This document shows positions 26,129 through 64,000 of a stretch of DNA of 64,000 nucleotides, one piece after another. The notes below the pieces were generated by a model. It ran no database searches, was not told the origin of the DNA, and worked only from the letters and a program-made list of their open reading frames with translations. The position numbers and the translations under genes are program-made. This stretch comes from Halohasta litchfieldiae. GTDB lineage: Archaea; Halobacteriota; Halobacteria; Halobacteriales; Haloferacaceae. The stretch is from positions 744,001-808,000 of the forward strand of contig NZ_CP024845.1 in assembly GCF_002788215.1 (NCBI RefSeq), read 5' to 3'. Position 1 is the stretch's first letter. Each line of letters begins with the position of its first letter.

Positions 26129-26136
26129 CTTAGTTC
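26129..26136 (+). repeat. Target-site duplication, left copy (CTTAGTTC)
   Basis: CTTAGTTC directly borders the left end of the IS element and is repeated exactly at 27063-27070. An 8-base duplication is what ISH1-type IS5-family elements make. Confidence 0.9.
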
Positions 26137-26168
26137 GGCTCTGTAGTTTCGGTATACGGCGGTCGATT

Positions 26169-26990
26169 TCATGGAAATCGGACGCTCCGTCGAAGGTTGT
26201 AGACAGCCGCTTTGAGCACCATTTCTCGGAACTCTAAGTGCCAACTTCGCGCACGCACGGCGGAGCCGAGCGTGCGCTTGATCGATGAGAAGACGGTTTC
26301 AGACATCGAGCGTTGGTGATACCGATCACTGTCCATGCGGGCGTTGTGAGCGTGATCGAGCGAAGAATAGATTCGATGCTTGATCAGGGGACGAACACCG
26401 TATCCACGGAGTTCGTCTCTGAAGGCTTTCGAGTCATAGCCACGGTCTGCAGCCAACGAACGCAGGTCGGCCGCATTCCTGCGGGCGACCTGCGGGCCAA
26501 TCTTTGCGTCGTGCTTCTTTGTCGTTGTGCAGTGGATGTCGGTGATGTACAGCGTTTCGACATCCACCAAGGCGGTGACTTTCAACGCACGAACGCGGTA
26601 GGAGGTGCGGTTGGCGTAGTGTCTGCTGGGCTGATCGCGGTCGAAGCCTGTTGCATCGATAGAGGCGTGACCTGTGCGTTTCTCGGCTGAACGGCCGAGA
26701 AACGCACGCCACGTCTTCATCGAGATCCGGCCAAACCAGGTGCGGAGAACGGTGTAGTGAGGGAGTCTTGTGAGACCAATTTCTTCGAGGATGCCGGGCA
26801 TTTCGCTGAGCAAATCAATCGTTCCACGATATGATTTGCCCAGCTCGATACGGAGTGCATGGAGCGTGAGCATCGCCCATTCAGCGAACCCGCGACCCCC
26901 ACGGGGGTCGGCGGGTTCGTCGGGGTTAGCGACAACTAGTTTAGCTTTCGTGACTGCAGTACGGGTGAGGAGACGGATTTCCGATATCAA
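26169..26990 (-). CDS. IS5-family transposase
   Basis: A 273-residue DDE transposase. The catalytic residues appear in HASIDATGFDRDQ (first Asp), LAADRGYDSKAF (second Asp) and QRSMSETVFSSIKRTLG (Glu). An N-terminal helical region with FAEWAMLTLHALRIELGKSYRG precedes the core. It is intact and fills almost all of the element. The coding sequence holds five long hairpins (see the separate repeat entry), which is unusual. Confidence 0.93.
   Translation of the reverse strand: MISEIRLLTRTAVTKAKLVVANPDEPADPRGGRGFAEWAMLTLHALRIELGKSYRGTIDLLSEMPGILEEIGLTRLPHYTVLRTWFGRISMKTWRAFLGRSAEKRTGHASIDATGFDRDQPSRHYANRTSYRVRALKVTALVDVETLYITDIHCTTTKKHDAKIGPQVARRNAADLRSLAADRGYDSKAFRDELRGYGVRPLIKHRIYSSLDHAHNARMDSDRYHQRSMSETVFSSIKRTLGSAVRARSWHLEFREMVLKAAVYNLRRSVRFP
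26249..26919. repeat. Five hairpins within the IS5-family transposase gene
   Basis: Stems seen directly: GCGCACGC/GCGTGCGC with inner CGGC/GCCG (26249-26277); CGCAGGTCG/CGACCTGCG (26461-26494); a perfect 14-base stem GTGCGTTTCTCGGC/GCCGAGAAACGCAC with a 6-base loop (26674-26707); GCAAATCA/TGATTTGC with inner ATCG/CGAT (26810-26839); CGAACCCGC/GCGGGTTCG with inner GACCCCC/GGGGGTC (26885-26919). They lie inside coding sequence. Confidence 0.85.
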
Positions 26991-27062
26991 ACTGATCTGT
27001 CTCTTCGCTTTCTACAGCAATAAAGGAGCTTTTGCCGTTACGTCTAGCGAAACTACAGAGCC

Positions 27063-27070
27063 CTTAGTTC
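27063..27070 (+). repeat. Target-site duplication, right copy (CTTAGTTC)
   Basis: Second copy of the 8-base duplication. On the minus strand it reads GAACTAAG and contains the TAA stop of the gene at 27064-27621. Confidence 0.9.
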
Positions 27071-27621
27071 TCCACCTCTTCGAGAGTCAGTAACACACGC
27101 ATAGAGAACTCATCAGCGGTCATCTCACCAGCATTGTACGATTCAGCCCATTCAGTTTCGGCATACCAAGAGGCTGTTTCACTATCGTCGACAGGATCAA
27201 GTGCAGTAACTTCCATTCGATCTGTCGTGACACCTTGGTCGATGGCACCAGCATAGACACCTGTTATGGTCCCCATATCTTCGACCACTTGTTGCTCTGT
27301 CGTCCCTGTTGAATAGTATTCGACAGAAAGAATGTTTTCCTCCTCATCGATTTCGACGGTCTGTAATTCGATCCCTTGGTCTTCGATAACCGTCTCAAAG
27401 AGAACTAAGATTTGCTCTTCTGAGAGCTCATCATCAGTTTGCTGTGTTAAGGGCAACTGGTCTGTTGGCGTACTTGCTGTTACACCATTTACTGCAACCG
27501 ACAGTATACAGAGGATGACAAACGAACCAATAGCGAGTATTCGTAGGCCTTGTACCGTTTCATGCCATCTCAACGTCGTATGTTCTGCATCGTCTTTTTT
27601 TGATCGGATCTTGTGAGACAT
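27064..27621 (-). CDS. Membrane-anchored or secreted haloarchaeal protein (DUF8159-like)
   Basis: A 185-residue protein with a charged N-terminus, one hydrophobic segment (residues ~29-50) that is either a signal or anchor, and an acidic outer domain. The pattern TGVYAGAIDQGVTTDRMEVTA ... WYAETEWAESYNAGEMTADEFSMRVLLTLE resembles a haloarchaeal domain family I recall as DUF8159; function unknown. Base composition is visibly lower in GC than the flanks. Its TAA stop lies in the IS target duplication, so the native C-terminus appears kept. Confidence 0.7.
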   Translation of the reverse strand: MSHKIRSKKDDAEHTTLRWHETVQGLRILAIGSFVILCILSVAVNGVTASTPTDQLPLTQQTDDELSEEQILVLFETVIEDQGIELQTVEIDEEENILSVEYYSTGTTEQQVVEDMGTITGVYAGAIDQGVTTDRMEVTALDPVDDSETASWYAETEWAESYNAGEMTADEFSMRVLLTLEEVEN

Positions 27622-60469: not shown

Positions 60470-61870
60470 ATGGCAACAGAGGCGAGCGCAGTCGACACGC
60501 CGGAAGCGTATGCAGACCTCCTCAACGAAATCGAACAGGTCAACGCTATCGAGAGCGCCAGCGAGATTCTCTCGTGGGACCAGCAGGTGATGATGCCCGA
60601 AGGTGGGACCCCCGCCCGCTCGAAACAGCTGTCGACTCTTTCGTCGCTCTCTCACGAATTGCTTGTCGACGGGCCTGTTGGCGACCTGCTCGACCAACTC
60701 GAAGACGAGTCGCTGACCGACGATCAAGAAGCAGTCGTCCGTGAAGTGCGTCGACAGTACGTTCGCGCCGAGCGCGTCCCCAGCGAACTGGTCGAGGAAA
60801 TCTCCGAAGCCACCTCGGAGGCCCTCGGCGCGTGGGAGTCGGCCCGCGAAAACGACGACTTCGAGGAGTTTGCACCACATTTGAGACGGCTGGTCGATCT
60901 CAAACGCCAGTATGCCGAACATATCGACTCGGAAGCCGACCCCTACGCCGTGTTATTCGCCGACTACGAGCCGTGGCTACCCCTTTCGCAGGCCGAGTCG
61001 ATCCTTGATGAACTCCGCGAAACGCTGGTTCCGCTCATTGAGGATATCCGGGCCTCCGAGGTCGATCTCGCGACCGATGCCTTCGAGGGAACCTACGACA
61101 CCGACACCCAAGAGGACCTTTCCCGAGAGGTGCTGGAACTGCTGAACTACGACTTCGGCCGCGGTCGACTCGACGTCTCGACCCACCCATTTACCTCCGG
61201 CAATCAGTTCGACTGCCGGGTGACGACGCGGTTCGACGAACGCGATCCGATTGGCGCGCTGACGTCGACGATCCACGAGTTCGGCCACGCCTACTACACC
61301 CTCGGTCTGCCCGACGAGGCGTTCGGAACGCCGCTTGGTGACCACCGGAATCTTTCGGTCCACGAATCCCAATCGCGGCTCTGGGAGAACCATATCGGTC
61401 GATCCGAGGCGTTCTGGGACCTGCTTCTCCCGAAGTTCAAAGACGCGTTCCCAGAGGCCGACGATCTCTCTTCCCGGGCGGCCTACGAGGCGGCTAATCA
61501 GGTGTACGATGAGAACTTCATTCGCGTCGAGGCCGACGAACTCACCTACCATCTCCACATTATCGTCCGGTTCGAGATCGAACGCGAACTCATCAGCGGG
61601 GATCTCGCGGTCGACGCGGTCCCCGAGCGGTGGAACGAACTCTACGAGGAGTATCTCGGCATCACCCCGCCGTCGGACGCGATGGGCTGCCTGCAGGACA
61701 TCCACTGGAGCCACGGCAGTTTCGAGGGTGTCATAGAAAGCGTCACACACGAAGACGCAGGATGTTGGAACTGTGTCTACGAGCGCCAGCATCCTGCAAG
61801 AGGAGACTTCTATCGACGAGTTCTTCAATGTAATGGCGACCGAGACGCTCGCGTTGTTCGAGCATCTTGA
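60470..61870 (+). pseudogene. M32 carboxypeptidase (Taq type), C-terminus cut off by an IS
   Basis: The frame encodes a Taq-type carboxypeptidase up to about residue 418: WDQQVMMPEGG near the N-terminus, TIHEFGHAYYTLGLPDEAFGTPLGDHRNLSVHESQSRLWENHIGRS (in pieces), with the HEFGH metal site and a later Glu. Family members continue for about 80 residues beyond HWSHGSF. Here the frame enters the IS left end at 61724 and adds about 48 unrelated residues before a stop at 61870. The product probably lacks part of its fold, so I treat the gene as broken. The missing end is not on the other side of the IS. Confidence 0.88.
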
Positions 61871-62771
61871 GTTCGACTTTCTCGAAGAATTCGATGTGTT
61901 CGCCCCCGCTCGCCGGGGGCGAACACGAGATCATCACCCACCAGCACTCTTCCGAGCGTTCCTGCACTGCTACTACAAGAACGTCTACGGCATCCGTCCA
62001 GTCACGCGAGAACTCCAGAACACGGTCGTCTGGCTCAGCTGTGGCTTCGATCGACCGCCGTCGAGAGACGCGGTCGATCGCTTCCTCACCGACCTCGAAC
62101 ACGTCGTCGACGAGGTCTTCGACCGCCTCGTCGAGCAGGCCGCCTGCCGCGGCCTGCTCGACTTGACCTACTCCATCGATTCCACCGACGTGAGGACGAT
62201 GCCCGCCGACCAAGACGCGTCGAAAGGCTACGATCCAACCGCCGAAGAGTACTACCACGGCTACGGCTGTACGATCGTCTCGACCGGGCAAAAGATCCCG
62301 ATTGCCGCGGAGTTCACCGAGAGCAAGCAAGCGCCAGAGGAGACGGCGATGCGCGTCACGTGTGACGCGCTCGCCGTCGAGAAACCGATCTGGATGCTTG
62401 GAGACAGCGCCTACGACACGCTCGGCTGGCACGACCACCTGCTGGCCGCAGGGGTCGTGCCAGTCGCTCCGTACAACGCACGAAACACCGACGATCCGAA
62501 AGACATCGAGTACAGGGTCGAAGCCCGCATCGACGAACACAGCGAGGACGTTCAGCTGAAGCAATCGACGCTAGACGAGACGTACAACCGCCGGAGTGGA
62601 GTCGAACGAACCAACGACGCCGTCAAGGACTGCGGCCTCGGGCACGTTCGCGCCCGAGGCCGCGTCCACGCACGAGCACAAGTGTTCCTCGCGCTGTGCC
62701 TTCGTCTCGTTATTGCGATCACCAACGACGAACGCGGAGACAATCCAGGAAGCACCGTCATCACGCTATGA
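61773..62771 (+). CDS. DDE transposase (IS4/IS5-like superfamily)
   Basis: A 332-residue transposase beginning at a GTG. The RNase H-like core has the first Asp in LTYSIDSTDVRTM, the second in WMLGDSAYDTLGWHDHL and the Glu in NRRSGVERTNDAVKDCG. The N-terminal part contains ALFRAFLHCYYKNVYGIRPVTREL. An internal ATG at residue 21 is a possible alternative start. Five long hairpins lie within the coding sequence (separate entry). The stop overlaps the right inverted end region of the element only slightly, so the gene is intact. Confidence 0.9.
   Translation: MSTSASILQEETSIDEFFNVMATETLALFEHLEFDFLEEFDVFAPARRGRTRDHHPPALFRAFLHCYYKNVYGIRPVTRELQNTVVWLSCGFDRPPSRDAVDRFLTDLEHVVDEVFDRLVEQAACRGLLDLTYSIDSTDVRTMPADQDASKGYDPTAEEYYHGYGCTIVSTGQKIPIAAEFTESKQAPEETAMRVTCDALAVEKPIWMLGDSAYDTLGWHDHLLAAGVVPVAPYNARNTDDPKDIEYRVEARIDEHSEDVQLKQSTLDETYNRRSGVERTNDAVKDCGLGHVRARGRVHARAQVFLALCLRLVIAITNDERGDNPGSTVITL
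61896..62663. repeat. Five long hairpins within the DDE transposase gene
   Basis: Seen directly: a perfect 13-base stem GTGTTCGCCCCCG/CGGGGGCGAACAC, loop 5 (61896-61926); a perfect 14-base stem GTCGAGCAGGCCGC/GCGGCCTGCTCGAC, loop 5 (62130-62162); GACGGCGA plus GCGCGTCAC paired with GTGACGCGC plus TCGCCGTC, 17 pairs with one bulged T (62342-62378); TGGCACGACC/GGTCGTGCCA with inner CCTGC/GCAGG (62423-62466 including outer pairs); a perfect 12-base stem GCGGCCTCGGGC/GCCCGAGGCCGC, loop 8 (62632-62663). Confidence 0.9.
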
Positions 62772-62774
62772 GAA

Positions 62775-64000
62775 CTATTCTATGACACCCTCATCCTGAA
62801 CGTTGATCTCGTCGTTCTCGGCGTCGTAATGGTTGATCTCGGTCAGCGACTTGTTCCGCCGGACCTTCTTGCCCTTGACGCGGGTTGAGGTCTGGATCGA
62901 AACGAGATCCAGCGCCGAGAACATCGTCTTCGAGACGTTGATCGGCTGGGTCGTAAACCGCTTGAGCACCTCGCCCACCGAATCGGCGTGGAACGTGGTG
63001 TAGGTGGTGTGACCGGTCGACATGACCTGGAACAGCGTCCGGCCCTCTTCGCCACGGATCTCGCCCATCACGATGTAGTCGGGCCGCTGGCGGAGGGCGG
63101 CCTCCAGCAGGTCGAACTCGTCGATGTCGCCCTTGTCGCCCTCGGTGAACGAGGGCCGGGTGACCGAGGCGATCCAGTTGCGCTGTGGGAGTTCGACCTC
63201 GCGGGTGTCCTCGATGGAGACAATCTTCGTGTTCGATGGGATAAACAGCGACACCGCATTGAGCGAGGTCGTCTTCCCCGAGGCCGTCCCGCCAGCGAAG
63301 ATGAGGGATTTGTCGTTCTCGATGGCCAACCACAAAAAGGCCATCTCGTTGAGCGAGAACGTCTTCCAGTTGATGAGGTCGATTGGCGTAAAGGGGACCT
63401 CCTTGAACTGCCGGATCGTGTAGTTGGTCCCGTGATCCGAGACTTCCTTGCCGAGCGTCAACTGAGCACGGGAGCCATCGGGGAGCGTGGCGTCGACCTG
63501 CGGACTGCGTTTGGAGACACCCTTCCCAGAGCGCTGGGCGAGTTTGACGACGAAGTCGTCGAGTTCGCTCTCGCCGTGAACGACGTTGGTGATGATCTGC
63601 TCGTAGCCCGAATGGTAGACGAAGACCGGTGAGTTGTAACCGTCACAGGAAATATCCTCGACGTTGATGTCGTGTTTGATCGGGTCGATCCGCTCGTAGC
63701 CGAGGAAGTCCCGCTGGAGGTAGTAGAGCAGTTTTTCGACCTGGTATTCGGTCAGCGTCTCGGCGTTCTCCGCAAGCACGACTGGCTCCGGCCGGGCAGA
63801 GATCCCGTTGAGTTCCTGATCAGTCGACACTGTCTCGGTGTCCGTCTCCAGATCGAAGCCGAAACTCGCCAAGAACTCCCCCAACTCGCTGTCGGGATCG
63901 GGATCGAGTCTGTACTCGTCGGGATCGAGCCGGTCGGGGACGAGTCGCTGGTGGAGCGGTGGTCGGTCGTCCCCGTCGGTCGAGGAGTCCCGCGAGTCGA
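62775..64000 (-). pseudogene. PilB-type (type II/IV secretion) pilus ATPase, 3' truncated by IS and 5' outside window
   Basis: The frame enters from the right edge and ends at 62775 inside the IS end. It carries the archaeal PilB/FlaI-type ATPase core: Walker A FAGGTASGKTTSLNA, Asp box SIEDTREVELPQRNW, Walker B DYIVMGEIRGEEGRTLF and the His box GHTTYTTFHADS. Haloarchaeal PilB proteins continue for more than a hundred residues after ENDEINV; here the final Gly-Val-Ile-Glu is encoded by the IS repeat and the rest is lost. The ATPase core is whole, so partial function cannot be excluded. It powers assembly of type IV pili. No pilin or PilC partner is visible. Confidence 0.88.

Follow-up and report, generated by a model that had tools for sequence, protein, structure and literature searches.

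The window, meaning the whole 64-kb stretch of Halohasta litchfieldiae DNA that was analysed, contains two insertion sequences (IS), here called IS_A and IS_B. IS_A is a complete element of 926 bp on the reverse strand (26137..27062), bounded by 22-nt terminal inverted repeats (26137..26158 and 27041..27062; 91% identity between the two ends) and by a perfect 8-bp target duplication, CTTAGTTC (26129..26136 and 27063..27070). Its transposase ORF (26169..26990, reverse strand; 273 aa) encodes a DDE_Tnp_1 domain (Pfam PF01609; E 9e-23, 81.5 bits) and shares, over approximately its full length, 57.5%, 56.8% and 45.8% amino-acid identity with ISH28, ISH19 and ISH1A respectively. By its domain, terminal repeats, 8-bp duplication and homology to named members, IS_A belongs to the ISH1 group of the IS5 family; the D and E columns conserved in the alignment of this group are candidate catalytic residues. 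The element is present once in the 3.33-Mb genome, alongside several more distant relatives; a search of viral contigs returned no relatives. Its insertion point coincides with the end of a hypothetical gene (ORF 27064-27621), whose TAA stop codon falls within the 8-bp duplication (27063-27070), leaving that gene intact. A contig labelled as a Rhodobacteraceae MAG (L202) bears a haloarchaeal ISH1-group IS and is probably mis-binned.

Seven stems are present in the IS_A transposase gene. Four are the main stems, numbered from the 5' end of the mRNA: stem 1 (26885-26900/26904-26919; 13/16 paired ungapped, or about 15 pairs with one G bulged), stem 2 (26674-26687/26694-26707; a perfect 14 bp), stem 3 (26461-26475/26480-26494; 14/15 paired) and stem 4 (26249-26261/26265-26277; 12/13 paired). 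The remaining three are clade-specific, at 26805-26817/26832-26844 (13 nt, 12 paired), 26532-26541/26558-26567 (a perfect 10 bp) and 26390-26401/26406-26417 (12 nt, 11 paired). Every hairpin named in the initial annotation, including the perfect 14-base stem (26674-26707) and the 16-pair stem with one bulge (26885-26919), is thus found in the gene, together with three for which it had listed no coordinates. Stems were scored at +1 per match and -2 per mismatch with loops of 3-20 nt and counted at a score of at least 10; chance levels were taken from 300 synonymous-codon shuffles per gene that preserve protein and codon usage. By this measure the IS_A gene contains five stems against 0.02 expected, a count reached in 0/300 shuffles. 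The 28 host genes of the window that were scored contain one altogether, and the flanks of ISH1-group loci average 0.39 stems per kb compared to 5.2 per kb in the genes themselves. Against codon shuffles, the RNA folding z of four genes, all of the ISH1 group, ranges from -5.6 to -10.6.

IS_B (61724..62792, forward strand) is an ISHla6-like member of the ISH11 group with perfect 15-nt terminal repeats; no matching target duplication was found at its flanks. Its transposase ORF (61773..62771, forward strand; DDE_Tnp_1, Pfam E 2e-27) contains perfect stems of 13 bp (stem 1; 61896..61926), 11 bp (62048..62080), 14 bp (62130..62162), 11 bp (62426..62463) and 12 bp (62632..62663), and scores five stems against 0.19 expected (0/300 shuffles). 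The element overlaps the 3' end of an M32 carboxypeptidase frame (60470-61870) and has 11 further identical copies elsewhere in the genome. Near-identical ISH11-, ISH6- and ISH3-type elements are common to the source genome and other haloarchaeal genera, the ISH11-type one having 99.7% identity to Halorubrum lacusprofundi ISHla6, which indicates recent exchange between genera.

Distribution of stems among families and hosts

Between four and ten coding-sequence hairpins are present in the DDE transposase genes of five unrelated haloarchaeal IS families (the ISH1 group, ISH11, ISH8 of the IS4 family, ISH3 and ISH6), at conserved positions that are specific to each family. The stems of ISH8, ISH3 and ISH6 also fall in conserved columns, averaging 4.9 per gene over 27 sequences, 5.9 over 30 and 4.1 over 12, respectively. 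A blind scan of 400 kb sampled from the H. litchfieldiae genome returned six stem clusters, all six in transposase genes (ISH11, ISH6 and ISH3 types). Among annotated genes, 63 stems were counted in 15 haloarchaeal transposases (2.0 expected) and seven in 72 other haloarchaeal genes (4.1 expected), compared to none in nine bacterial transposases (0.33 expected) and two in 59 other bacterial genes (3.6 expected). Haloarchaeal IS200/605 TnpA genes also lack stems (0 in 29 genes, 0.5 expected). Among ISH8-like genes, those of haloarchaea (37-54% identical to ISH8A) carry 5-8 stems, while no stems were found in bacterial ISH8-subgroup genes (Aeromonas and Raoultella; ISAeme4, ISApu1 and ISApu2) or in other IS4/IS5-like bacterial genes. 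DDE genes of other Halobacteriota classes show a faint excess (1 vs 0.17 and 4 vs 0.70 expected). A slight excess was observed in IS5-like transposases of the Methanosarcina class (L292:19911-20807, L394, L398 and L402) at a GC content of 31-38%, including two stems against 0.03 expected in Methanomethylovorans.

The initial annotation had proposed, from two dissimilar transposases, that selection acts on haloarchaeal IS genes rather than by accident in one family. The occurrence of the trait in five unrelated DDE families, its absence from the bacterial relatives tested and the near lack of excess in host genes bear this out, and the single-family account is rejected. A general property of transposases is likewise rejected, both by bacterial genes of IS1, IS4, IS5, IS21, IS30, IS91, Tn3 and ISNCY (0 stems) and by stem-free haloarchaeal Y1 genes.

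Some haloarchaeal genes are exceptions, with ISHtu1 and ISH7A lacking stems and ISH15 nearly so. A sub-clade of ISH11 (L107/L109; 92.7% identical, from two genera) has lost nearly all of its stems while its frames remain open, providing a natural comparison for stem function. Stems are therefore not indispensable, since ISHtu1, ISH7A and this sub-clade retain open frames. Haloarchaeal TnpB genes (L266, L271 and L284) show a small excess, with four stems against 0.2 expected in seven genes, perhaps originating from the overlapping omega-RNA.

The spacing of the stems is regular within one group. In IS_A, the main stems start at 26249, 26461, 26674 and 26885, at intervals of 212, 213 and 211 nt, and spacings across the ISH1 group are 212/213/217 or ~222/220/214. 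The ~212-nt spacing reported in the initial annotation consequently holds for this group, but finds no support as a spacing common to other families: a universal ~212-nt period was rejected, the other families showing no clear periodicity. Relative to random placement, gap evenness has a median percentile of 0.18-0.23 in four families and 0.54 in ISH8. From one major stem to the next, the distance often falls between ~185 and 220 nt (212 in the ISH1 group, ~190 in an ISH8-like element, L328, and ~190 in ISH6).

Conservation, compensation and selection

Conservation was assessed in 71 distinct ISH1-group sequences (100-52% amino-acid identity) and 49 ISH11-group sequences (48-100% identity). 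In the ISH1 group, the same alignment columns hold stems 1 to 4 in 66, 58, 67 and 62 of the 71 sequences, with three further stems clade-specific. The ISH11 group has its own conserved set; in the order given above for IS_B, its stems are found in 46, 25, about 43, about 45 and 44 of the 49. Conservation across family members, on which the initial annotation had made its proposal depend, thus extends to ISH1, ISH11, ISH8, ISH3 and ISH6. The covariation test it had suggested within an IS family revealed compensatory changes in the ISH1 group. Stem 2 shows compensation that alters amino acids. Arms stay paired through coupled amino-acid changes in QV...DL (GCAGGTCGCC/GGCGACCTGC) versus QL...EL (GCAACTCGCC/GGCGAGTTGC), and likewise in LLR...AQLH (GTGCTGCTGCGC/GCGCAGCTGCAC) versus LLR...AQEH (GTGCTCCTGCGC/GCGCAGGAGCAC). 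Watson-Crick consensus pairs amount to 76%, and to 89% in ISH11, falling to 23-32% when slid by 1-3 columns. Base pairs are therefore kept by compensation, as in conserved RNA structure.

Substitution patterns also differ between stems and the remainder of the genes. Divergence at 4-fold sites is 2-5 times lower in stems than outside; in the ISH1 group, synonymous divergence drops by roughly half within stems, and in ISH11 it is up to ~5 times lower there, and amino-acid changes in stem codons are about half as frequent in close pairs. It is almost certain that selection acts, at the nucleic-acid level, on hairpins in haloarchaeal DDE transposase genes of these five families. The need for nucleic-acid pairing thus accounts for part of the amino-acid conservation in these transposases, and IS analyses based on dN/dS or codons may give misleading results.

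Two accounts without selection on structure were weighed. One holds that the stems are a by-product of GC-rich codon usage or of the amino-acid sequence. High-GC genes do lift the chance level slightly, but codon shuffles yield 0.02-0.3 stems per gene compared to the 4-7 seen; this control for GC and amino-acid bias, also proposed in the initial annotation, reproduced the stems of neither IS_A (0.02 vs 5) nor IS_B (0.19 vs 5), which refutes a codon or GC artefact and leaves this account scarcely credible. The other is mutational, with template switching in quasi-palindromes copying one arm onto the other so that stems stay perfect without being selected. Such copying would be consistent with the strand symmetry of the stems and with the two-sided changes that accumulate over long times. 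It is nonetheless highly improbable: host genes show little excess (7 vs 4.1; one stem in the 28 window genes), bacterial and IS200/605 TnpA genes are without stems, and among close relatives (4-fold divergence <0.2) 332 stem differences are one-sided and 10 two-sided. Selection is the better account because recent differences are one-sided and ordinary genes barely show an excess; genome-wide template switching, which should raise stem counts in every gene and make recent changes two-sided, is disfavoured.

Action as RNA or as DNA

Tests of strand symmetry give little indication that the stems are selected as sense-strand RNA. In each of the five families, consensus folds are as strong for the sense strand as for the antisense (-145/-162, -243/-255, -175/-163, -212/-240 and -219/-252), whereas SRP RNA of the same class, used as a control, folds asymmetrically (-152/-103). 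Singleton mismatches in stems comprise 139 G.U and 118 A.C, compared to 62 and 17 in haloarchaeal SRP RNA, though some singletons may be mutations in decaying copies, not yet sifted by selection; opportunity-normalised third-position transition rates are 0.700 and 0.713. These singleton and fold-energy tests were adopted because a count of distinct mismatch events proved insensitive on SRP RNA. Raw in-stem mismatches (65 G.U to 12 A.C) were rejected as a sign of RNA selection, being mostly due to few shared positions and disappearing when distinct events are counted. Neither a preference for G.U over A.C nor a stronger sense fold was found, while persistent mismatch types in formed stems of intact genes lean weakly towards RNA (G.U 4 to A.C 0; 62 and 12 of 8,691 cells). 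The stems are thus nearly strand-symmetric and almost strictly Watson-Crick, with a weak hint of RNA. A search with Rfam models matched them to no known RNA family (best match E 0.75, far below the gathering score).

Many haloarchaeal mRNAs are leaderless, and no 5' UTR hairpin can hide their ribosome-binding site. An IS in such a host would consequently place its control within the gene. In every family the first stem lies near the gene start, ~30-150 nt inside (in ISH3 genes, a stem of 13-14 bp at nt ~51), and not over the ribosome-binding site or start codon as in the IS200/IS10 type. The favoured reading, tentative and with a likelihood somewhat short of even, is that the stems serve as a translational brake on the transposase mRNA. 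They would fold in this mRNA, and probably in antisense transcripts too; we infer that ribosomes would stall early at the 5'-most stem and again at later ones, so that transcription would yield little transposase except where the stems are melted by an RNA chaperone, for instance SmAP1. In Halobacterium salinarum, transposase mRNAs are abundant, yet only 4 of 33 mobilome proteins were detected, of which three are IS200/605 TnpB; Ribo-seq shows a pile-up over the 5' end of one ISH3-family transcript. Deletion of smap1 lowers transposition of IS4 and ISH3, with the authors mentioning the potential of SmAP1 to melt hairpins (PMC10134880). A brake is the most economical reading of these published data together with the stem-loaded ISH3, IS4 (ISH8), ISH1, ISH11 and ISH6 genes and the stem-free IS200/605 TnpA. 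Against it stand the strand symmetry of the stems, in which G.U is hardly commoner than A.C, the open frames of the stemless ISHtu1, ISH7A and L107/L109 clade, and the small stem excess of TnpB, a protein that is detected. Strand symmetry could fit if antisense RNAs must fold too, or if the stems act in single-stranded DNA.

Each of these possibilities corresponds to a rival reading. At the DNA level, the inverted repeats would form hairpins in either strand when single-stranded, as in recombination tails, heteroduplex loops or gap repair, and in the polyploid, recombination-rich haloarchaea they could make IS copies less prone to ectopic recombination or protect a new insertion from erasure by loop repair. 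Each element would then be selected for hairpin richness along its full length, and the DDE transposons of haloarchaea would have converged on a strand-symmetric code of hairpins within their coding sequences, for example one shielding single-stranded IS DNA. We regard this as unlikely, albeit worth serious attention: strand symmetry with a near absence of G.U preference, the presence in multicopy DDE IS rather than host genes, the spread of stems over the whole gene and the weak signal in Methanosarcina-class elements argue for it, while the persistent mismatch types lean to G.U. Stems as GC-rich as these, 10-14 bp long and with 3-20 nt loops, do not readily extrude from double-stranded DNA, which also counts against it, and a literature search for a DNA-level role of such stems found nothing specific. 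Alternatively, sense and antisense transcripts might both need the stems, for example for loop-loop contact or to resist antisense pairing. Antisense RNAs are common on haloarchaeal transposases, occurring on 32 non-redundant ones in H. salinarum (PMC6523106), and strand symmetry would follow; however, most of the mRNA lies outside stems and IS200/605 genes also have antisense RNAs despite their stem-free TnpA, making this a rather doubtful explanation. A further proposal, that pauses at stems hold the nascent transposase near its own DNA for co-translational binding, would account for stems throughout the coding sequence. Cis preference is established for many IS transposases and known in bacteria. 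Given that the tested bacterial IS transposases nevertheless lack stems, and given strand symmetry, such cis action is very improbable. If the translational brake is the correct reading, the stems are a concrete candidate cis element for the H. salinarum transposase mRNAs without detectable protein, and also for the effect of SmAP1 on IS4 and ISH3 transposition.

Relation to known systems

The closest known elements, ISH1A, ISH28 and ISH19, belong to the same transposase family as IS_A and have stems at homologous positions; no description of these coding-sequence stems, or of coding-sequence hairpins in the other haloarchaeal transposases considered here, was found in the open-access literature. 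RNA structure limits transposase output in IS200, IS10 and ISPpu9 (PMC8450116; IS200 and IS10 through papers cited in PMC10134880), and the haloarchaeal stems would act similarly on protein. Those elements, however, rely on a single 5' hairpin, sited either in the 5' UTR or at the ribosome-binding site, in contrast to the 4-10 stems found here along the coding body of unrelated families in one host lineage, where amino acids co-vary with pairing. The sotRNA or omega-RNA of IS200/IS605 is also a structured RNA overlapping a haloarchaeal transposon gene (PMC8303175), but is a discrete 3' non-coding RNA of tnpB, unlike the present stems, which have no Rfam match. Quasi-palindrome (template-switch) mutation likewise involves inverted repeats with strand symmetry, though it would affect all genes and produce mostly two-sided changes, neither of which is seen. 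The selection described here for nucleic-acid structure within coding sequence is tied to host lineage rather than transposon family, and suggests a further layer, so far unrecognised, in the control or protection of mobile DNA. Compared to these systems, what appears to be new is the presence of many conserved coding-body stems that would have originated separately in five families and are tied to host lineage. The distance from known mRNA-structure control would be greater still if the stems prove to act at the DNA level, in which case host DNA handling would have influenced protein sequence in transposases unrelated to one another.
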